DNA from: Clostridiales bacterium 1_7_47FAA
GTDB taxonomy: Bacteria; Bacillota; Clostridia; Lachnospirales; Lachnospiraceae
Reading direction: 5' to 3'
Length of the DNA: 59,881 nucleotides
Assembly: GCA_000155435.1 (NCBI GenBank)
Contig: DS990260.1
Span: 2,953,147 to 3,013,027, forward strand
The position numbers were made by a program, and so were the translations under genes. The notes beneath the pieces are model-generated. The model was not told where the DNA came from. It did not search any database and saw only the letters and a program-made list of their open reading frames with translations. Below are positions 21,540-31,829 of this stretch, one piece after another (the stretch's first letter is position 1; each line of letters opens with the position of its first letter).

Positions 21540-22073
21540 CTACTTATTGTCCAGCTCTACTACTCCGATGTAAGGCAGGTTACGGTACTTCTGGTCATAG
21601 TCAAGTCCATATCCCACTACAAATTCATCCGGTATTGTAAAACAGGTATAATCCACCTTCACCTGCTTCTTCACACGGCGCTCCGGCTTATCTAAAAGCG
21701 TGCACAGACGGATGCTCTTTGGCCCTCTCTGCTTCAGCACCTCAATCAGATATGCCAGGGTACGGCCGGAGTCAATGATATCCTCCACAATCAGTACATC
21801 CTTGCCTGCCAGCGGTTCATCCAGGTCCTTGAGTATCCGCACGACACCGCTGGACTCAGTTCCCGCGCCATAGCTGGAAACCGACATGAAGTCCAGGGAT
21901 ACGGGAACCGTAAGCCTCTTGGCCAGTTCACAGGTAAAGAATACCCCTCCCTTTAATATACAGATCAGGTGGATCTGTCTGCCCTCATACTCCTCGCTGA
22001 TTTTTGCCGCTACCTCATTAATGCGTCTGTCAACCTCTTCTTCGGTCAGTAACACACGAATCCTATCCGCCAT
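21540..22073 (-). CDS. hpt: Hypoxanthine phosphoribosyltransferase
   Basis: 177 aa purine-salvage enzyme: hypoxanthine or guanine plus PRPP gives IMP or GMP. The PRPP loop VLIVEDIIDSGRT and the SSYG flexible-loop motif are present. ATG 22073 (MADRIRV) has GGAGG eight bases upstream. An ATG eight codons earlier (22097) overlaps the tilS stop as ATGA but has a poor ribosome site, so either start is possible. Confidence 0.95.
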   Translation of the reverse strand: MADRIRVLLTEEEVDRRINEVAAKISEEYEGRQIHLICILKGGVFFTCELAKRLTVPVSLDFMSVSSYGAGTESSGVVRILKDLDEPLAGKDVLIVEDIIDSGRTLAYLIEVLKQRGPKSIRLCTLLDKPERRVKKQVKVDYTCFTIPDEFVVGYGLDYDQKYRNLPYIGVVELDNK

Positions 22074-22093
22074 CACTTTATCCTCCGTTTCAC

Positions 22094-23638
22094 TCATTCT
22101 TTTCTTCTACCGCCTGCCTCTGCCTGCAGTACCTTGGTGGTATCAGGACCAATCTTGTAAAACTCACTGATCCTATATCCGATTATCCACATCACATGAC
22201 TGCCATCTGTCAGAAGGGGGACCTGGTCCCGCAGCTGTCTCGGTATCTTCTCATCAATCATAAACCGTTTTAACGCCTTATGGCTTCCATCGGCCAGGGT
22301 TATATAGTCTCCTGGGCGCCTGGTTCTTACCACGGGCGTACCCTCTATTCTATCACAGTCAAACCATTTCGTATACATATTTTTCGGAAATTGTGACCCT
22401 TTTTTATAGGGAAAAACACACATCCTGACCTGGGGCAGGCATACCTCTTTGTCCTTTTCCTGTAAAATGCTCCTGCCCACGGAAATCTCCCTGTATTCCC
22501 TCCTGGCCATAAGCGAATATGGCAGGTCCACTTCTTTTCCCACCGGCCGTCCGGCCAGGGCCAGCACCTGCTGCACATGGATGAGGCCAAGGTCCCTGGC
22601 TGACCCTGCCAGGCGTTTTAACAGCTCCATCACCACATAGGAGCGGATGATTTCCGGCTCTGCCTGAAGCAGGTCACAGGGAATCAGGAAATGCTCCGGG
22701 CCATCACGTACAACATGCCCTTTTATCCAGCATTCCCCCTGAGCCCGCAGATATTCATCTGCCTGGGATGCCAGCTTCCCCATGCGCAGGATATTACCGG
22801 CCGCGCCCTGGTTTACCTCCGCCTCAATCAGCGGAAGGAGATTGCTCCGTATCCGGTTACGGGTATAGTGGCCGGAGCTGTTGGTGGAGTCCTGTACCCA
22901 GGCGCATCCATTTTCCTCCAGCCACTCCACGATATCCCGGCGTCCTATATCCAGAAGAGGCCGTATGATCCTCCCCCGTACATAAGAAATCCCTTTCAGC
23001 CCACCAAGCCCGCTTCCCCGGAACAGGTTGTGGAGTATGGTTTCCGCCTGGTCATCGCTGTGGTGGGCCACTGCAATCTTCACCCTTTTATTCCGGCAGT
23101 CCCCTGTCTCACCGCCGCAGCGCTGCCGCCCGCTATCACAATCCCGGCCTTCACCGTCCCGGCGCTGCCGCCCGCCATCACAATCCCGGCCTTCACCGTC
23201 CCGGCGCTGCCGCCCGCCATCACAATCCCAGTCTTCACCGCCGCAGCCATCGCTGTCTTCCCACCAGCGGGCCTCCCGCTCCAATGCCTCATATCTCAGG
23301 TACCGGCCGGCTTCCTCCTCGGACATACCGTTTTCCGATGCATACTTACGCACATCTACCTTTATGATATGACAGGTGACCTCCAGTTCTTCACACAATG
23401 CCCTGACAAAATCCGCATCCCTGTCAGCTTCCTGTCCCCTCAGACCATGATGGACATGGACCGCCATAAGCTTAAGGTCCCAGTCCTTTTTCATACCGCA
23501 TAACAACGTTAAGAGGCAGACGGAATCTGCCCCTCCTGATACTGCTGCGATGACCCGGTCCCCCGGGTCCAGCATATGATATTCTTCAATGGTCCTTCTG
23601 ACCCTCTGCTCTGCCTCGTCCATTCGTCCCACCTGCAT
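22094..23638 (-). CDS. tilS: tRNA(Ile)-lysidine synthetase with internal tandem-repeat insertion
   Basis: 514 aa. TilS converts C34 of the CAU-anticodon tRNA-Ile to lysidine; it is essential in most bacteria. The P-loop SGGADS is at residue about 35, the HVHHGLRG and AHHSDDQAETIL motifs are intact, and the C-terminal RPGDYI...KRFMIDEKIP domain is present. Between EREARWWE and KIAVAHHSDD there is an extra Asp/Gly/Arg-rich stretch of about 50 residues built from three 14-residue repeats (DCDGGRQRRDGEGR). The start may be 23638 or the Met five codons later. Confidence 0.93.
   Translation of the reverse strand: MQVGRMDEAEQRVRRTIEEYHMLDPGDRVIAAVSGGADSVCLLTLLCGMKKDWDLKLMAVHVHHGLRGQEADRDADFVRALCEELEVTCHIIKVDVRKYASENGMSEEEAGRYLRYEALEREARWWEDSDGCGGEDWDCDGGRQRRDGEGRDCDGGRQRRDGEGRDCDSGRQRCGGETGDCRNKRVKIAVAHHSDDQAETILHNLFRGSGLGGLKGISYVRGRIIRPLLDIGRRDIVEWLEENGCAWVQDSTNSSGHYTRNRIRSNLLPLIEAEVNQGAAGNILRMGKLASQADEYLRAQGECWIKGHVVRDGPEHFLIPCDLLQAEPEIIRSYVVMELLKRLAGSARDLGLIHVQQVLALAGRPVGKEVDLPYSLMARREYREISVGRSILQEKDKEVCLPQVRMCVFPYKKGSQFPKNMYTKWFDCDRIEGTPVVRTRRPGDYITLADGSHKALKRFMIDEKIPRQLRDQVPLLTDGSHVMWIIGYRISEFYKIGPDTTKVLQAEAGGRRKE
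23118..23243. repeat. Three 42-bp tandem repeats inside tilS
   Basis: Copies at 23118-23159, 23160-23201 and 23202-23243 differ at few bases. The 42-bp period keeps the frame and encodes 14-residue units. Confidence 0.9.
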
Positions 23639-23692
23639 CCGGTTATTCTCCAGGCCGTCAAAAAACGCCCTCCATACAAAATAAACCAGGAT

Positions 23693-23725
23693 GCTGCCGG
23701 AAAGCGATTTTCAAACACGCCTTAG
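23693..23725. repeat. Solo right end of the 27.7-kb palindromic element
   Basis: Matches 27867-27899 at about 28 of 33 bases, including ATTTTCAAACACGCC and TAG at the end. It lies between spoIIE and tilS, just ahead of tilS. Confidence 0.7.
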
Positions 23726-23787
23726 GTGTCTTATTATAATATACCCGCAAATCCCCGGCCGCGCAAGCCCCATAATACTGTCTTTCC

Positions 23788-25209
23788 CTACGGGTGCCGT
23801 TTCCACAGCCCTGCTGTCAGCACCGTCATGTCATCCCTCGGCGCCGGAATGAAGGACACCGCAAAATCCAGTATCTGGTCAGCCAGTTCCTGTGGCCCCA
23901 TCTCATCCACGCTTTCCAGGTACTGTTTCATCACCTGCTCCTTGTCATCCCCCGGCAGCGCGTCCAGCACCCCGTCGCTGACCATGATGATACGGTTCCC
24001 ATCCCACAGCTTCCTGGACATGAGCACCGGCTCCACCCCGTTCATGATACCCATGGGGACCTGTCCTGCTTCCAGGATTTCCACACCCTCATCGCCAATG
24101 ATGAAGGTTGGTACCGCCCCCAGCTTCATCACCTCCAGAACGCCGGTGTGCAGGTCGATGCAGCTCACATCCAGCGTAGCCGGGTGCTGCTCCGCACCTG
24201 CCAGCAAAAGGACCGTGTTCACCAGCTTAAGGGCTGCCCTTGCCGAGAAGCCCGTCTCCAGCAGCTGCTCCGTCAGTTCCACCACCTGCCTGCTTTCCTT
24301 AGAAGCAGTTTCCCCGCTTCCCATGCCGTCGGAAAGGCTCATCACCACCTGGCTTCCCTGGCTTTCGCAGAACGTATAATTATCCCCTGAATACTTCTCA
24401 CCCTGGCGCGGTATCCTGGACGCGCCGTAAAGCATGCGGTAGCCGCCGTCCTCCAGCAGCCGGATGGTGGCGTACTGTTTTGTTATGATGCTGCGGCTGT
24501 CCTTGGCAGGGCTCCACCTGGAATCATCCACCACCTCGCCCATAAGCTCAGCCGCTTCCTTGGATGTTATGCACCTGCCGTTGGTGGTCCTGGCGGTCAG
24601 GAACGCCTCCTTCTGACCATTCTCATACTCCAGCAAAAGCAGGTTCCCCACCGCTATATGATACCTTCTGAAATGCTTTTTTATTATGTAATCAAACTCC
24701 TCACTGATATCCCTGGCCTGGTCAATCTGATGGGAAAATTCCTCCAGGATGACAGACAGTTCCCTGAACTGTGACACCACCGCGTCCCTGCTCTCTAAGA
24801 AACGGTTTTTCCAGGACAGATTCATGGTAGCCCGTCCCAGGCTGCGGTTGAGCTGGGCCAGGTACGCGTCCTGTTTCCTGCACCCGGTCTGGAACATCTG
24901 GGGCATGTCCTCATAATCAATACGGCCCTTCTGTTCAAATGCCCGCAGCAGGTAATACAGGTAATAGCTGTCCTCCTTTTCACTGTCAGCATACAGATTA
25001 CACTTGCTGCAGCTCTCGCACACCAGGGCAGCGCTTGCCTGCATGGCAGCCAGTCCATCCACACGGGACAGCTGTCCGCTCTTTTCCACCTCATCGTCAA
25101 ATGCCTTGGCCAGCTGGTTCAGCGACTCCGCCATATCCCCCAGCCTTCTGGCCGTATAATGATTCACATCCACTTTATTTTTTATATCTCTGCTATTTCT
25201 TGAAAACAC
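23788..25209 (-). CDS. spoIIE: Soluble SpoIIE-type serine phosphatase
   Basis: 473 aa PP2C-type phosphatase that dephosphorylates SpoIIAA and so activates sigma-F in the forespore. The C-terminal domain has MSLSDGMGSGETASKES, the Asp in VSDGVLDALPG and the final DDMTVL motif. The central region (CESCSKCNLYAD, then a coiled-coil-like helix) fits SpoIIE. The usual N-terminal block of about ten membrane helices is missing; divIC ends about 100 bases upstream, so no room exists for it. GTG start with AGGAGG seven bases upstream. Confidence 0.85.
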   Translation of the reverse strand: MFSRNSRDIKNKVDVNHYTARRLGDMAESLNQLAKAFDDEVEKSGQLSRVDGLAAMQASAALVCESCSKCNLYADSEKEDSYYLYYLLRAFEQKGRIDYEDMPQMFQTGCRKQDAYLAQLNRSLGRATMNLSWKNRFLESRDAVVSQFRELSVILEEFSHQIDQARDISEEFDYIIKKHFRRYHIAVGNLLLLEYENGQKEAFLTARTTNGRCITSKEAAELMGEVVDDSRWSPAKDSRSIITKQYATIRLLEDGGYRMLYGASRIPRQGEKYSGDNYTFCESQGSQVVMSLSDGMGSGETASKESRQVVELTEQLLETGFSARAALKLVNTVLLLAGAEQHPATLDVSCIDLHTGVLEVMKLGAVPTFIIGDEGVEILEAGQVPMGIMNGVEPVLMSRKLWDGNRIIMVSDGVLDALPGDDKEQVMKQYLESVDEMGPQELADQILDFAVSFIPAPRDDMTVLTAGLWKRHP

Positions 25210-25313
25210 AAAAATCCCTCCTAATCCGCGTAACTTTCAGTATACGCATCATGGAGGGAAATAAATGTCTAATCATGAACCGATTATTAAAAATGTTTCG
25301 CCTGTTTTCGTCA

Positions 25314-25631
25314 TTACTCCGTTGGCTTTAAGAGTATCTCATCCGGGTTCACCAGTCCCAGCTTTTCCTTGGCCACTTCCTCGGCATACTGCTTGGTCTT
25401 GACGTAAATCTTGTATTCCTGCAGCTCGCTGGTCCGCTTCTCCTCCTCCGCCACCTGCTTTGCCAGATTCTCTTCCCTTATCTGGTAATCCAGGTCAGAC
25501 TGCTTAAGATCCGCGCCCTTTATGTTAATGGCCACTGCAAGGCACATGACAACAAGGGTAATACCCATGATAGCCATGCGGTTTGCCCATTTATCCTTTT
25601 TTATGCGTCTTGATTTACCATAGGATCTCAT
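25314..25631 (-). CDS. divIC: Septum formation initiator DivIC/FtsB-like
   Basis: 105 aa bitopic division protein. A basic cytoplasmic tail (KSRRIKKDKWANR) is followed by one TM helix (AIMGITLVVMCLAVAI) and a coiled coil ending KEKLGLVNPDEILL, the conserved DivIC/FtsL closing motif. It would help assemble the FtsW/PBP complex at septa. The start is uncertain: ATG 25631 is 15 bases from GGAG, while GTG 25643 and TTG 25646 overlap the yabQ end. Confidence 0.85.
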   Translation of the reverse strand: MRSYGKSRRIKKDKWANRMAIMGITLVVMCLAVAINIKGADLKQSDLDYQIREENLAKQVAEEEKRTSELQEYKIYVKTKQYAEEVAKEKLGLVNPDEILLKPTE

Positions 25632-25635
25632 CTGT

Positions 25636-26016
25636 CTATTCACCAACTCCGCTTTGTTTCTGGTTACAAATCTTTGTATGTTTGTTCCTGTTTAATATCA
25701 TTTTAAGACATTTACCTATCTTTTTCAAGCACTTAAAGAAAATTCTGCTGATGAGCCTGTCATATAGGATCATGCCCATAAACACCCCGCCTACCACATA
25801 CGCCCGGAAGACCCCGTCGTTCTGTTCATACAGAAGGATGAACGTCACAAGGCCCGCATACAGCCAATATATGAAATCCTCCACCCCCGTCCAGAAGCTA
25901 CCGTGCCGGATGACCAGACGGAATACCCTCAGGGTATCATAGGCCAGCATCAGCCATGCCCCGGTCACCAGGCTCAGCACCATAAGCCAGACTTCGTACT
26001 GAATCCTGCCGCTCAC
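25636..26016 (-). CDS. yabQ: Spore cortex biosynthesis protein YabQ
   Basis: 126 aa membrane protein. Four hydrophobic segments (VWLMVLSLVTGAWLMLAYD; FIYWLYAGLVTFILLY; VVGGVFMGMILYD) and a basic tail match YabQ. In Bacillus it is made under sigma-E and is needed for cortex formation. GTG start with AGGAGG seven bases upstream, 11 bases after yabP; the two genes form one unit. Confidence 0.88.
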   Translation of the reverse strand: MSGRIQYEVWLMVLSLVTGAWLMLAYDTLRVFRLVIRHGSFWTGVEDFIYWLYAGLVTFILLYEQNDGVFRAYVVGGVFMGMILYDRLISRIFFKCLKKIGKCLKMILNRNKHTKICNQKQSGVGE

Positions 26017-26027
26017 ATCCTTACCTC

Positions 26028-26315
26028 CTATTTAAACAGCCTGGTAAACAGGGATTCCCCGGACTTGCGCAGGGCCTCATTGGAGCTGTACACACAGCTG
26101 TCAATGGTCCCCTCTATATCCACTTCCCCCTTTTCAAGGGTAAGCCTGCTCACATGCAGGTCCTTTCCCTTAATGGTGAGAAGCCCCATATCCGTATCCA
26201 GGACAATGGCATTCTCATCAAAGGACACCACGTCGCAGATTCCTGTTATGTTTCCTGTTCCACGGTTCTGAAATATAAGTTTGTGCTGGCGTCCGCCAAC
26301 GCTTCTTTCTTCCAT
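26028..26315 (-). CDS. yabP: Sporulation protein YabP
   Basis: 95 aa. FQNRGTGNITGICDVVSFDE and ILDTDMGLLTIKGKDLHV-type strands with LEKGEVDIEGTID are typical of YabP/YqfC sporulation proteins that act in the mother cell. Its ribosome site CCTCCCC (plus strand, 26323-26329) lies inside the 3' arm of a 20-bp hairpin and seven T separate it from the ATG. Confidence 0.9.
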   Translation of the reverse strand: MEERSVGGRQHKLIFQNRGTGNITGICDVVSFDENAIVLDTDMGLLTIKGKDLHVSRLTLEKGEVDIEGTIDSCVYSSNEALRKSGESLFTRLFK

Positions 26316-26364
26316 AAAAAAACCTCCCCATATATCTAACCTAAGTTAAATATATGGGGAGGTT
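26316..26364 (-). terminator. Terminator of hup-rqcP that buries the yabP ribosome site
   Basis: On the minus strand 26364-26345 pairs with 26340-26321 (15 perfect bp, then one T-G pair and four more bp) around a TTAG tetraloop, followed by seven T. The 3' arm carries the GGGGAGG of yabP. It should end hup-rqcP transcripts and hide the yabP site in any read-through RNA. Confidence 0.85.
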
Positions 26365-26378
26365 GGCCATTCTATGCC
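26349..26378 (-). promoter_or_regulatory. Sigma-E-like promoter of yabPQ, -10 inside the terminator arm
   Basis: GGCATAGA (26378-26371), 14 bases, then CATATATT (26356-26349) on the minus strand, compared with the Bacillus sigma-E pattern GKMATATT-N14-CATACAnT (about 6 of 8 in each half). The predicted start falls in the hairpin tetraloop. Confidence 0.5.
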
Positions 26379-26385
26379 TTTTATC

Positions 26386-26625
26386 TCAGATATAACGGTA
26401 AAGCTCTTTGGCTTCATCCTTTTTCACGGTTTCCTGCACGTCCAGGACCTCGACCTTCACAGCCTTGGCGCCAAACTGAATCTCAATCATATCCCCTGTC
26501 TTCACATTCAGGGAAGCCTTTGCCGGCTTATCATTCACCAGCACGCGGCCTGCATCACACGCCTCATTGGCAATGGTCCTGCGCTTAATCAAACGGGAAA
26601 CCTTGAGAAACTTGTCCAGTCTCAT
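26386..26625 (-). CDS. rqcP: S4-domain ribosome quality control protein RqcP
   Basis: 79 aa. The complete protein is one S4 RNA-binding domain (MRLDKFLKVSRLIKRRTIANE, then GRVLVNDKPAKASLNVKTGD) as in RqcP/YabO, which binds 50S-tRNA complexes and helps RqcH add Ala tails to stalled chains. It starts three bases after the hup stop and is co-transcribed with it. Confidence 0.92.
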   Translation of the reverse strand: MRLDKFLKVSRLIKRRTIANEACDAGRVLVNDKPAKASLNVKTGDMIEIQFGAKAVKVEVLDVQETVKKDEAKELYRYI

Positions 26626-26628
26626 GAA

Positions 26629-26904
26629 TTATTTGTTAACCTCATCCTTCAGGGCCTTGCCTGCTTTGAACTTTGGAGTCTTGGAAGCAGGGATAGGCAT
26701 AGCGTTACCAGTCTTAGGATTCCTGCCCTCTCTTGCAGCCCTCTCAGCAACCTCGAAAGTACCAAAGCCAACCAGCTGTACTTTTCCGCCCTTTACAAGT
26801 TCTTCTGCTACTGCATCAGTGAAAGCCTTAACAGCCTTCTCTGCATCTTTCTTGGAAAGTTCTGCCTTCTCAGCAACTGCTGCGATTAATTCTGTCTTGT
26901 TCAT
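26629..26904 (-). CDS. hup: Histone-like DNA-binding protein HU
   Basis: 91 aa. [20 protein letters not shown] and the arm motif [21 protein letters not shown] are classical HU; the dimer bends and compacts DNA. ATG 26904 has GGAGG eight bases upstream. It has its own promoter within the end of mazG. Confidence 0.97.
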
Positions 26905-26979
26905 CAATTTGTCCTCCTGAATATAGTCCCGGGAACCTCCCGGATTCATTACTTAATTAATGTCTGGTATACTTAATCA

Positions 26980-27008
26980 TTTATAGCCTTTTTGCTTTGA
27001 TTTGTCAA
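26980..27008 (-). promoter_or_regulatory. Sigma-A promoter of hup
   Basis: TTGACA (27008-27003) overlaps the mazG stop and TATAAA (26985-26980) follows after 17 bases on the minus strand. Confidence 0.75.
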
Positions 27009-27385
27009 GGTTTTTTGGCTTTTTCCTGCATTTTTATCTGATTCCAGAGAGCGGTCCCTTCCTCCACTGAATTTATCTTAACATTTCCAAAGACGTGGGG
27101 GTGTCTTCGCACCATTTTCCTGCACACACCGTCAATCACATCCTCAATGGTAAAGCAGCCCTGCTCACTTGCAATCTGGCTGTTAATCATCACCTGGAAC
27201 AGCACATCCCCCAATTCCTCACACAGATTCTCCATATCCCCCCGATCCACAGCCTCAAACACTTCCTCAGCCTCCGAAGCCAAATGCTTCTTCAGACTCC
27301 CAAACGTCTGCTCCCTATCCCAGGGACACCCCTCCTCCGACCGAAGCTTCGCCGTAATCCCCTTCAATTCCTCAAATGTATACAT
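27005..27385 (-). CDS. mazG: MazG-type nucleoside triphosphate pyrophosphohydrolase
   Basis: 126 aa single-domain MazG. EEGCPWDREQTFGSLKKHL and the metal-binding EAEEVFEA...EELGDVLFQV (ExxE-x12-ExxD pattern) are complete. It hydrolyses NTPs or dNTPs to monophosphate and PPi, cleaning the nucleotide pool. It is half the length of E. coli MazG, which has two such domains. ATG 27385 has GGAGG nine bases upstream. Confidence 0.92.
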   Translation of the reverse strand: MYTFEELKGITAKLRSEEGCPWDREQTFGSLKKHLASEAEEVFEAVDRGDMENLCEELGDVLFQVMINSQIASEQGCFTIEDVIDGVCRKMVRRHPHVFGNVKINSVEEGTALWNQIKMQEKAKKP

Positions 27386-27497
27386 ACAAACCAACCTCCT
27401 ACCAAAAATCCCATACCCAATGTTCCCGCCACCCCCATATCCCCCACTCCTTTTTCACTACCATCCGTTTCGCGCATGTCACTGCCGGAATCCCTCA

Positions 27498-27995
27498 GTC
27501 TGCGAAGCGGGCCAGGGAGGGTCTCCTGCTGCGGGACCGGGAGGGGGCCTTGGGGCGGCAGTGGTCCGGACGCGTAGTGGAGGAGGGAGCAGCTTCTTAG
27601 TCCCTGTCAGCCTGAAAACCGGGGGTGGACGAATGCATCAAAGCATGAGTCCAAGGGGCTCTGAACGTAGAAAGTCCTTCAGGATTTCTACGTGAATAGC
27701 CCCGATCCCCCGGTTATCAGGCTGGCAGGGACTTAGGGTGTGTTTGAAAATTCATTCCCGCCATCTGCACGCCCCACTTCGCGGGAGATTTGGCCCCAAT
27801 TCGGTCAACGTAGCCCGCTACGCCTCCCTCACCGGGACCAAATCTCCCACAAAGTGGGACGCACAGCTGACGGAAAGCAATTTTCAAACACGCCCTAGAA
27901 GCTGCCCCTCCGGAACCCAGCGTCCGGGCCACTGCCGCCCCAAGGCCCCCGCCCGGTCCCGCAGCAGGAGGCCCTCCCTGGCCCGCTTCGCAGAC
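27498..27995. repeat. Branched palindromic repeat element (three-stem junction)
   Basis: An outer inverted repeat (27498-27600 with 27897-27995; about 77 bp with four mismatches, then a variable 14 bp, then GCAGCTTCT) encloses two adjacent long hairpins. Hairpin B spans 27597-27736; its left arm also carries a small stem at 27626-27653 with facing GA/GA bases. Hairpin C spans 27736-27899. Solo ends of C occur at 19461-19501 and 23693-23725. No transposase is encoded. It may be a non-autonomous mobile element or a structured RNA. Confidence 0.8.
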
Positions 27996-28022
27996 GCAGC
28001 CCCCCGCCACATTCGCCAAACC

Positions 28023-28640
28023 CTACTCCCCTTTATTCCTCTTAATCACCTTAAGCCTGGTAAACTCCTCCCTCTCCTTCTCTTCCAGCGCATCCGAGAT
28101 GGATTTGCTCAGATCGGTATAGTGGGGAATGGTGATATTCTTAAGGGCATTGGCCCTTTTCTGTGTCTTCTTAATGGAGTTAGCCAGGCGGTAAGCGGAA
28201 TTTTCCACCATGGACAGCTTGATGGTCAGTTCCTTCACCTTTTCAAAATGGTATCTGGCCTCGTCCAGGGACTCGGTGGTGTTATAAAACCCGTAAGTCA
28301 GGGCCAGAGGCTTCACCTCATGCTGCACCAGCGGGATTTCCGTTCCCATGATGCTCCTGGCCTTAATCTTCACCCTGTCATCCACCGGCACGGATGCGCC
28401 GATTTCCTGGACATAGTTGATTCCCAGCTCGATGTTGGCCTTCTGCAGCGCGGCATAGGCGGCCCGGAACGTGGAATCAATTTCGGACTGGATGCCCTTT
28501 GCCTCGTCAATCAGGCCCATAAGCTCACGGATAAGGATATTCCTCTTCTTATCCATAAGCCCATAGCCCATGTTTGCCAGGTTCAGTGAGTTCTTGGCCG
28601 CAATCAGATTACCTTTTGTGGGAAATGTATTTGGATCCAT
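28023..28640 (-). CDS. atpD: V-type ATPase subunit D (central rotor stalk)
   Basis: 205 aa, nearly all helical. MDPNTFPTKGNLIAAKNSL and GYGLMDKKRNILIREL are the conserved N-terminus of subunit D, and a second long helix at the C-terminus completes the antiparallel coiled coil that turns inside the A3B3 head. Last gene of the nine-gene operon; the branched repeat lies directly after it. Confidence 0.95.
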   Translation of the reverse strand: MDPNTFPTKGNLIAAKNSLNLANMGYGLMDKKRNILIRELMGLIDEAKGIQSEIDSTFRAAYAALQKANIELGINYVQEIGASVPVDDRVKIKARSIMGTEIPLVQHEVKPLALTYGFYNTTESLDEARYHFEKVKELTIKLSMVENSAYRLANSIKKTQKRANALKNITIPHYTDLSKSISDALEEKEREEFTRLKVIKRNKGE

Positions 28641-28665
28641 TTACATCACTCCTTACGCTGCCATG

Positions 28666-30048
28666 TCATTCTTCCTCTGGCTTATAAAACTGGTCAAGTA
28701 TCTTAGTGTCAATACGGTCAAGCTCTTCCCTGGGCAGCATGCCAAGGAGCTTCCAGCCAATGTCCAGTGTCTCCAGTATGGTCCTGTTCTCATGGCGCTC
28801 CTGGCCCACGAAATTCTCTTCAAACTCCCTGCCGAACACAAGATACTTCTTGTCCGTGGGAGACAATTCATCCTCGCCGATAACCGATGCAAGGGCCCTG
28901 GCGTCCCCCACCTTTGCATAGCAGGAGAACAGCTGGTTGGCCACGTCCTGATGGTCGGCCCTTGTATACCCCTCGCCGATACCGTCCTTCATCAGACGCG
29001 ACAGGGAGGGCAGCACATTGATGGGCGGATAGATGGACTGCCCGTTTAACTGGCGGTCCAGTACGATCTGCCCCTCCGTGATGTATCCGGTCAGGTCAGG
29101 GATGGGATGGGTGATATCGTCATTGGGCATGGTAAGGATTGGAATCTGGGTAACAGATCCCGGCCGTCCCGCCACAATCCCAGCCCTCTCATAAAGGGAG
29201 GCCAGGTCACTGTACAGATACCCCGGGAATCCCTTCCTGGAAGGAATCTCACCCTTGGATGATGAAACCTCACGCAGCGCCTCTGCATAGCTTGTCATGT
29301 CGGTCAGTATGACCAGTATATGCATACCCTTTTCAAAGGCAAGGTACTCCGCCAGCGTCAGGGCAATCTTGGGCGTGATCAGACGCTCCACCACCGGGTC
29401 ATTGGCCAGGTTGATGAACATGGCCACATGCTCGGACACGCCGCTCTCCTCAAAGGTGCGGCGGAAGAAATCAGCCACGTCATACTTAACGCCCATGGCC
29501 CCGAACACAATGGCAAACTTCTCATCTGAATTATCCCCCAGGGATGCCTGCTGCACGATCTGGGCAGCCAGCTGGTCATGGGGCAGTCCGTTGCCTGAGA
29601 ATATGGGCAGCTTCTGTCCCCTTATAAGCGTTGTAAGCCCGTCAATGGCGGAGATACCCGTGCGGATATAGTTCCTGGGATACTCACGTGTAACCGGGTT
29701 TAAAGGTTTTCCGTTGATATCCAGCTTCACATCGGATATGATGTCGCCCAATCCGTCAATGGGCTGCCCGATACCGTTAAAGGTACGCCCCAGCATTTCC
29801 TCGGAAACTTCAATCTCCATGGGATGTCCGGTCAGCCTTGTATGGGTGTTGCGCAGGGCCATGCCCTCGGTGCCCTCAAAGACCTGGATGATTGCCTTGT
29901 CCCCGTAAATCTCAATGATACGTCCAATCTTGTGGGTACTGCCGTTTACCGTCATCTCCACGATTTCATCGAAAGCCGCATTCTGAACGCCCTCAAGGAC
30001 GACCAGCGGGCCATTGATTTCACTTAAACCTAAATATTCAATTGCCAT
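28666..30048 (-). CDS. atpB: V-type ATPase subunit B (regulatory head subunit)
   Basis: 460 aa. Lacks a P-loop, as expected of B. Characteristic stretches are [45 protein letters not shown]-like segment and [16 protein letters not shown]. It forms the alternating A3B3 ring and contributes the arginine finger. It follows subunit A by 14 bases. Confidence 0.97.
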
Positions 30049-30062
30049 ATGTCCGTCCTCCT

Positions 30063-31829
30063 TTACGCGTTCCTCTCCATTACCCTGTCATAGAACGCGT
30101 CAATCTGCTGTTTATAATCGTCAAACATATCCAGGCGGTCGTTGGGGACATCATACTTAATGGATATGATCTTATCAAAAATATTCTCTTCCTTTAACAC
30201 GGAAACAGGCATGCCCATGGAAATCAGCGCCCTGCACTTCTTATTCAGGTACAGGATGATTTCCATCATTTTGAACTGCTTAATCAGGGGCACGGACGTG
30301 TCTTCTTTATGGAACGCATTCTGCTGCAGGAAGCCCAGGCGGATTACCCTTGCAATCTCAAGCACCAGCTTCTGGTCGTCCGGCAGCACGTCCGCCCCAA
30401 TCAGCTTTACAATCTCCATCAGGCTGCTCTCCTGGGTCAGAAGCGCCATCAGACGGTTGCGGTAATCCACAAACTTCTTATCCACATTGTCCATGTACCA
30501 GGACGCCAGGTCGTTGATGTACTCGGAATAGCTGGTCAGCCAGTGGATGGCCGGGAAATGTCTGGCATAGGCCAGGGATTTATCCAGTCCCCAGAAACAG
30601 CGCACGAAACGCTTGGTGTTCATGGTCACAGGCTCTGAGAAGTCACCGCCCTGTGGTGAAACAGCGCCGATGATGGTCACGGAGCCTTCGGTTCCGTTTA
30701 AGTTCTGCATCATGCCCGCCCTCTCATAGAACGCGGACAGACGGGACGCCAGATATGCCGGGAAACCTTCCTCTGCCGGCATTTCCTCCAGACGGCCCGA
30801 AAGCTCACGCAGCGCCTCCGCCCACCTGGAAGTGGAGTCTGCCATGATGGCCACATGATATCCCATGTCCCTGTAGTATTCCGCCAGGGTCAGGCCGGAA
30901 TACAGGCTGGCCTCACGGGCAGCCACGGGCATGTTGGATGTATTGGCAATCAGCGTGGTCCTGTCCATCAGGGGATTGCCTGTCTTGGGATCGATCAGCT
31001 CCGAGAACTCCTCCAGCACCTGGGTCATCTCGTTGCCGCGCTCCCCGCAGCCGATGTAGATGATCACATCCGCGTCCGACCACTTGGCAACCTGGTGCTG
31101 GGTCATAGTCTTGCCCGTGCCGAAACCGCCCGGAATGGCAGCCGTTCCGCCCTTTGCCAGCGGGAACATGGTATCCAGGATACGCTGTCCCGTAATCAGC
31201 GGCTTTACGGCAGGGAAACGCTTGGCGGACGGCCTTGGGATACGGATGGGCCACTTCTGGGTCATGGTAAGCTTTTTCTCCGTCCCGTCCATCAGCTGTA
31301 CGGTGAGCAGCGTCTCCTCAATGGTATACTGTCCGTCCGGCATGACCTCAAGGACATAGCCCTCCACATCCGGCGGCACCATCACCTTATGGGTAATGGC
31401 CCTTGTCTCAGGCACCTCGGCGATAATGGTCCCAGGCATCAGGCGGTCGCCCTTCTTTACCACCATGTGTGTCTCCCACTTCTTGGAAGTATCCAGGCTG
31501 TCCACGGAGATACCGCGGCTGATATAATATCCGCTGCCCTTGGCAATCTCGCTTAAGGGCCTTTCAATACCGTCAAAAATATTGCTCAGGATTCCGGGGG
31601 CCAGTGTAACGGACACGGGCGCGCCCGTACCGGTCACGGTTTCTCCCGGTTTGATGCCGCTGGTTTCCTCGTATACCTGAACCGTTGTTTTTTCTGAAGT
31701 AAGTCCGATGACCTCGCCCACCAGGTTCTCCGCTCCCACATAAACCATTTCATTCATCTGGAATCCCGGATCGCCCAGCAAGGAAACGACAGGACCATTA
31801 ATGCCGTGTATCACACCTGTCTTAGCCAC
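30063..31829 (-). CDS. atpA: V-type ATPase subunit A (catalytic)
   Basis: 588 aa. Walker [10 protein letters not shown] lies near residue 232, the non-homologous insertion of A subunits precedes it, and the catalytic Glu is in [34 protein letters not shown] is the arginine-side signature. It couples ATP turnover to rotation of D/F and the K ring. Two bases after subunit E, so tightly coupled. Confidence 0.97.

Follow-up and report, generated by a model that had tools for sequence, protein, structure and literature searches.

The palindrome directly upstream of the sporulation gene yabP in Clostridiales bacterium 1_7_47FAA probably encloses a sporulation promoter in a two-level lock: read-through transcripts would be both terminated and untranslatable, and sigma-E transcripts would escape both effects. 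The arrangement lies on the minus strand at positions 26378-26315 of the window, the whole stretch of 59,881 nucleotides that was analyzed. A first-pass annotation of the window had called the palindrome a growth/sporulation switch. That one palindrome carries both roles is supported by the sequence, but lock or insulator is the better name because sigma E does the switching.

All of the genes around the hairpin are encoded on the minus strand. The hup gene (26629..26904; PF00216) encodes the HU DNA-binding protein and is followed by rqcP (yabO, 26386..26625), the last gene ahead of the hairpin, which encodes an S4-domain protein (PF01479) that we take to be RqcP/YabO. Behind the hairpin are yabP (26028..26315; 95 amino acids; TIGR02892, 90.1 bits against a cut-off of 75.4; PF07873) and yabQ (25636..26016; TIGR02893; PF09578), the second gene of the sporulation unit. 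Profile searches of the region called YabP, YabQ, HU, the S4-domain protein, a MazG-like protein, and SpoIIE. The rqcP stop is at 26386 and the yabP ATG is at 26315, with 70 nt between them.

Read along the minus strand, the arrangement begins with a sigma-E-type -35 octamer, GGCATAGA (26371..26378), followed by a 14-nt promoter spacer, ATGGCCAACCTCCC (26357..26370), that includes the anti-Shine-Dalgarno (anti-SD) motif CCTCCC, recognized by spacer shuffling and covariation. The conserved -10 octamer, CATATATT (26349..26356), lies within the 5' arm of the hairpin (26345..26364), as the first-pass annotation had noted for its sigma-E-like GGCATAGA-N14-CATATATT. By convention, the start site is the 7th nt after the -10 octamer. 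This places the predicted sigma-E start at A26342, within the tetraloop TTAG (26341..26344) of the fold, where the annotation had also put it. The 3' arm (26321..26340), delimited like the 5' arm by terminator scanning and folding, contains the yabP Shine-Dalgarno sequence (SD), GGGGAGG, 7 nt 5' of the ATG; its location in this arm (26329-26323) agrees with the annotation. The T run (26316..26322), read from the sequence and recognized by the terminator rule, also serves as the spacer between SD and ATG.

The isolated hairpin (26364-26321) folds into 20 pairs, one of them G-U, with a predicted energy of -30.0 kcal/mol. When 166 nt of context is folded, the minimum free energy (MFE) structure retains 19 of the 20 pairs (z = -7.2), and 0 of 200 shuffled sequences were as good. 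A terminator scan of positions 22000-31000 returned 8 sites, among which 20 pairs are unique to the yabP hairpin. A stable stem-loop with a T run directly after it, downstream of rqcP, is the sequence form of an intrinsic terminator. The earlier description of a 20-bp hairpin with a tetraloop and seven T's that ends hup-rqcP holds for the pairs, the loop, and the position; one pair is G-U, however, and two of the seven T's are within the stem base, so that five follow the stem. Between 25000 and 28000, no Rfam family reached its gathering score, the match at the hairpin being mir-3688 with 22 bits of 84. A known RNA family was rejected because all matches in this interval were subthreshold, and a chance palindrome was rejected on the basis of conservation, covariation, and control comparisons.

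The promoter reading is supported by the spacing of its elements in relatives. The yabP set comprises the best 80 of 128 confirmed loci, a choice biased toward YabP proteins close to that of the window, plus the window itself, for a total of 81. When elements were counted in these 81 upstream regions without preference for a spacer of 14, 65 of 99 -10 matches had [CA]ATA upstream at exactly 14 nt in octamer notation, and none of the alternative spacings between 4 and 39 gave more than 8. An ATA-core -35, a CATA-type -10, and a conserved spacing of 14 are together the sequence features of a sigma-E promoter. In C. difficile, excerpts of PMC3789822 describe -35 elements of ATA for sigma E and AC for sigma K, with similar -10 elements. 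The layout itself, its conservation, the covariation, and the excess over controls are established from sequence, whereas we infer recognition of the promoter by sigma E, the start position, the termination efficiency, and the translational repression in cells.

In folding predictions, the yabP SD is largely hidden in read-through RNA and much freer in sigma-E RNA. The mean unpaired probability of the SD in read-through RNA was 0.069 across 79 yabP loci, 63 of which were below 0.1, compared with a control mean of 0.43 and 11% below 0.1 for 280 other genes at the same loci. In the predicted sigma-E RNA, the mean was 0.50, and only 2 of 68 loci were below 0.1. The window itself follows this pattern (0.01 in read-through RNA, 0.51 in the predicted sigma-E RNA, close to the 0.43 of ordinary genes), although in the MFE structure of its predicted sigma-E RNA the SD is still partly base-paired to the coding region. 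The claim that the SD is hidden in read-through RNA and freer in sigma-E RNA is therefore in agreement with predicted folding (0.07 versus 0.50). As in the phage T4 and sigG systems considered below, the ribosome binding site (RBS) is predicted to be paired in read-through RNA, and the predicted start is downstream of the 5' arm, so that the RNA made from it would not contain that arm.

A terminator-like hairpin that overlaps the SD and ends just before the start codon was found at 60 of the 81 yabP loci. A single rule for an SD inside a terminator hairpin, applied throughout, was satisfied at 61/80 yabP loci, 40/66 spoIVA loci, 0/26 gpr loci, and 9/280 other genes. A promoter was called in 55 of these 61 yabP hairpins and not in the other 6. 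Where both features were called, the predicted start was within the hairpin in every case (55/55), 50 times in the apical loop, compared with 5 of 324 other terminator-like hairpins at the same loci. The proposal was to be abandoned if close relatives lacked the overlap; the overlap is present, with covarying arms and anti-SD spacers that pair better than chance. The SD-overlapping terminator was lacking at 21 of the 81 close yabP loci, which indicates that the lock is dispensable.

The two arms appear to have changed together. When 30 hairpins were aligned, standard pairs were formed in 88.1% of cells, versus 79.7% when the 3' letters were shuffled and 36 to 54% when the arms were slid. Cells changed on both sides numbered 47 versus 14.3 in shuffles, although the rows are related, and these counts are inflated by kinship and do not represent independent events. 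Among 41 distinct yabP arms, native pairs had a mean energy of -20.7 kcal/mol versus -14.5 kcal/mol for arms swapped between species. Thirteen of the 41 natives beat at least 95% of their swaps, and five (L043, L055, L072, L074, and L078) were no better than swaps. The hairpin arms thus look selected for pairing. Shuffling only the 14-nt spacer at 66 yabP loci decreased pairing of the SD with the sequence preceding the start from 0.92 to 0.53, with 53 of 66 loci at ≤0.05, which indicates that the promoter spacer carries the anti-SD.

We propose the following mechanism. During growth, polymerase coming from hup-rqcP would transcribe the whole hairpin and terminate intrinsically. RNA that reads through would retain the hairpin, with the yabP SD hidden in its 3' arm, and ribosomes could not start. 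In the mother cell, sigma-E polymerase would initiate in the loop, at about A26342. Since the anti-SD is in the -35/-10 spacer, upstream of the start, it would never be transcribed in sigma-E RNA. The resulting mRNA would have a leader of ~27 nt, would not be terminated at this site, and would present an SD as accessible as those of ordinary genes.

Three further features of the region were recorded. A sigma-A-like TTGAAA-N17-TAAAAT is found on the minus strand at 25700-25728, at the 3' end of yabQ and ahead of divIC. Such a promoter occurs at 67 of 76 loci versus 11.7 expected from shuffles, a difference to which lysine-rich coding may contribute. With its own sigma-A-like promoter, divIC, the next vegetative gene, does not obviously need read-through into the sporulation unit, which could be sealed off while divIC stays supplied. 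The SpoIIE encoded at 23788-25209 on the minus strand has only 473 amino acids, and its match to TIGR02865 begins at model position 308, with the N-terminal part missing. The open frame ahead of this match is ≤53 codons in 29 of 30 relatives examined, and the short SpoIIE therefore looks lineage-wide. Upstream of mazG, nested long inverted repeats occupy 27498-27995, the arms measuring 90 nt (90% complementary), 81 nt (separated by 2 nt), and 30 nt. A translated stretch like this one is also found at another locus (L113), which suggests a dispersed palindromic element.

Within the 6.5-Mb genome, the strict layout pattern matched once, and a reversed-pattern control matched 0 times. The promoter pattern combined with GGAGG gave 9 matches (control, 1), including yabP and the start of a SpoIID-like gene (L237; PF08486, 21.1 bits of 23 on the first 80 amino acids). 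A looser pattern gave 25 matches, among which a clear hairpin, an SD, and a gene start were seen together by eye only at yabP. Another loose pattern gave 248 matches, about 100 of which were listed and three inspected; where inspected, matches to both loose patterns were mostly without a gene start.

A covariance model built from 30 yabP hairpins was searched against 299 Lachnospiraceae genomes with E values up to 0.01. Matches were found in 98 of the 299 genomes, some of them not at yabP, while YabP is present in 190. The strong form may therefore be in under half of yabP-bearing genera, although the strict filters of the genome search lose weak matches. Of the best 30 model loci, 27 adjoin yabP, counting that of the window. 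The exceptions are spoIIIAA (L269; TIGR02858 on a partial protein, E = 2.6e-24), dapF (L261; TIGR00652), and an 88-amino-acid open reading frame (ORF) found at L273, which is the same locus as L288.

Twenty matches without a listed yabP alongside, L288 included, were examined. On the hit strand, the start codon of an ORF of at least 60 amino acids is located at the end of the hairpin in 18 of the 20 and in two there is none; on the opposite strand, ORFs of at least 80 amino acids start at 5 of the 20. The genes at these matches include spoIVA (two; TIGR02836 at both), cwlD (TIGR02883), four SleC-type spore cortex-lytic enzymes (L283 by PDB 9h68, E = 8e-100; three by resemblance), three Csp-type proteases (L279 by CspBA/CspC models, E values of ~1e-46 to 1e-45, under the cut-offs; two by resemblance), YlmC/YmxH (TIGR02888), two TIGR04086/DUF3792 membrane proteins, and one each of a PrcB_C protein, a 74-amino-acid Cys-rich ORF, and the 88-amino-acid ORF. 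The protein at one further match (L284), which had no family match in NCBIfam or Pfam, is presumably SpmA-like. The same form of hairpin with SD and T run is also found ahead of a Y1 (IS200-like) transposase (L275, G511:C29), another of the 20, and ahead of dapF (L261, G693:C1), so not every match is a sporulation gene. Because CATATA-like stems and SD-like arms are favored by the model, the gene matches are not an unbiased sample. Excerpts of PMC517825 list cwlD, dacB-spmAB, spoIVA, and yabPQ of B. subtilis as sigma-E genes. In C. difficile, the csp operon is described as sigma-E dependent and sleC as sigma-K dependent in excerpts of PMC3789822; yabP was not found in the portions of that paper and of PMC7438776 consulted.

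The spoIVA gene was chosen because the model had matched it, but the loci themselves were picked independently of the model. It is present in 194 of the 299 genomes, from which 70 upstream regions were taken (30 best scoring and 40 lower in the list), 66 of them with a callable start and SD. The mean unpaired probability of the SD was 0.14, with 45 of 66 loci below 0.1 and 35 of 66 below 0.02. Of the 47 loci with a promoter call, 35 had a spacing of 14, and pairing of the SD with the sequence preceding the start was 0.84 versus 0.55 with shuffled spacers (27/47 at ≤0.05). Promoters were called for 31 of the 40 spoIVA SD-terminator hairpins and not for 9, and the predicted start was inside the hairpin in 30 of the 31, in 8 cases in the apical loop. 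At spoIVA of the window genome (L314), the form is weak: the SD is unpaired at 0.16, and its pairing is not better than with shuffled spacers. For gpr, which we take to be a forespore gene, the mean was 0.50 across 26 loci, and 2 of 26 were below 0.1.

Upstream of spoIVA, a same-strand open frame of at least 80 codons ends within 226 nt in 29 of 30 long-flank loci and at 515 nt in one. These frames end in differing C-termini, and short opposite-strand frames also occur; some of the frames we take to resemble GpsA and others LivF. The SD-terminator is kept in 20 of the 30 long-flank loci behind these differing frames, and the lock thus seems to stay with spoIVA when the neighbor changes. Judged from sequence, the arrangement is not special to yabP and is common to spoIVA and, by model matches, to other mother-cell genes.

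Of the other explanations considered, one in which the translational lock alone matters is unlikely but fares best. The anti-SD would silence read-through RNA, and the T run would be a mere unstructured spacer between SD and ATG with little termination. The SD pairs with the sequence preceding the start (0.96 to 1.0) without an SD-overlapping terminator at L043, L064, and L071, two of which (L043 and L071) are also positive in the spacer test. For the B. subtilis sigG and T4 genes, excerpts of PMC5942855 and PMC2988022 likewise describe a translational lock and mention no terminator role. Weighing against this explanation are the T run directly after the stem and the frequency with which the terminator rule is satisfied at yabP (61/80) and spoIVA (40/66) versus other genes (9/280). 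Two loci, L032 and L035, keep the yabP hairpin even though rqcP is immediately followed by another terminator, and at L060, which has a separate terminator, the yabP hairpin is gone. Together with L043, L064, and L071, these loci suggest that the terminator and translational parts can separate.

It is distinctly improbable that the hairpin is an ordinary hup-rqcP terminator in a crowded gap whose overlap with promoter and SD is an economy of space, with no lock selected. An HU operon is highly expressed and requires a terminator, and the distance from the rqcP stop to the yabP ATG is short in the window (70 nt). However, the overlap is retained at gaps of 107 to 117 nt (L004, L006, L029, and L031) and with the second terminator of L032 and L035, spoIVA has the lock behind different upstream frames, and the predicted start is consistently inside the hairpin (55/55 and 30/31). 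That the palindrome instead works at the DNA level, as a regulator site or in promoter shaping with RNA folding incidental, is very hard to credit: a palindrome this long could bind a dimer, and according to excerpts of PMC517825 SpoIIID additionally represses yabPQ and spoIVA in B. subtilis, but stem sequences vary across genes and species while pairing and T run persist, and no common operator sequence was seen by eye among the stems.

The two-level lock is our preferred reading at yabP, and its recurrence at spoIVA, and probably at other mother-cell genes, suggests a general device of Lachnospiraceae for barring sporulation proteins from growing cells when their genes are directly behind vegetative operons. 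A stronger version, which we favor only slightly over its negation, is that of a reusable mother-cell lock in which the promoter spacer both acts as the anti-SD and contributes to the 5' arm of the terminator. Every carrier (yabP, spoIVA, and, by the model, spoIIIAA, cwlD, SleC, Csp, and YlmC/YmxH) would then be doubly silenced in read-through RNA, and only transcripts initiated inside the hairpin would unlock it. Extension of the lock to all Bacillota yabP genes was unsupported. Among 90 loci sampled more widely from Bacillota, 85 of them usable, the mean SD unpaired probability was 0.29, with 22 loci below 0.1 (26%; controls, 11%), and outside the Lachnospiraceae the spacer effect was near background (0.67 versus 0.59; 6/33 pass), a sporadic occurrence. 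By eye, similar SD hairpins are present at five distant Bacillota yabP loci (L105, L110, L171, L172, and L185), two of which (L171 and L172) pass the spacer test; independent origins are possible.

A nested layout without a T run was also seen on the minus strand at G000:C106:69634-69695 (L228 and L240). Here, a sigma-G-like GAATA-N18-CATCCTA, read by the sigma-G promoter consensus, is inside a hairpin whose 16-bp stem is perfectly paired and whose 3' arm forms the SD of a 61-amino-acid ORF. Apart from this genome itself, a search of 40 other relatives gave one weak homolog of the ORF (E = 0.0035). This may be a forespore version of the lock.

Sporulation genes can be located directly behind strongly transcribed housekeeping operons. 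If our reading is correct, it explains how leaky transcription avoids making spore proteins in growing cells, and one short sequence would do three jobs under overlapping constraints. The layout would also allow mother-cell genes to be recognized by their sequence in gut bacteria that are difficult to handle experimentally.

The logic of the lock has precedents. Excerpts of PMC2988022 describe RBS hairpins that hide the RBS in early read-through RNA of the T4 late genes I-TevI, I-TevII, I-TevIII, and segB and of Aeh1 mobE, while RNA from a late promoter lacks the 5' part of the hairpin and can be translated; the same source reports sequestered RBSs for T4 soc, e, 39, 25, and 26 as well. This is the same logic as at yabP, but the genes are those of phages, and the hairpin is not described as a terminator in these excerpts. 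For B. subtilis sigG (spoIIIG), a hairpin of 20 or more pairs has been proposed to block translation of read-through RNA from PspoIIG, whereas RNA initiated at PsigG cannot fold into it (PMC5942855, in excerpt). Here the same logic would operate within sporulation, but for a single gene and with forespore sigma factors, and the excerpt mentions no terminator function. The B. subtilis yabPQ, spoIVA, cwlD, and dacB-spmAB genes are under sigma E as well, and hairpins are not mentioned for them in the excerpts of PMC517825. Intrinsic terminators and attenuators likewise have a G+C-paired stem followed by a T run; at yabP, however, no ligand or antiterminator is proposed, and what changes is the place at which transcription starts. 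Searches of open-licence papers returned no title or abstract on this layout at sporulation genes. While the logic is known from T4 and sigG, the fusion with a terminator and the repeated use at mother-cell genes appear to be new, and a principle established in phages and at a single B. subtilis gene would thereby reach several genes within one bacterial family.
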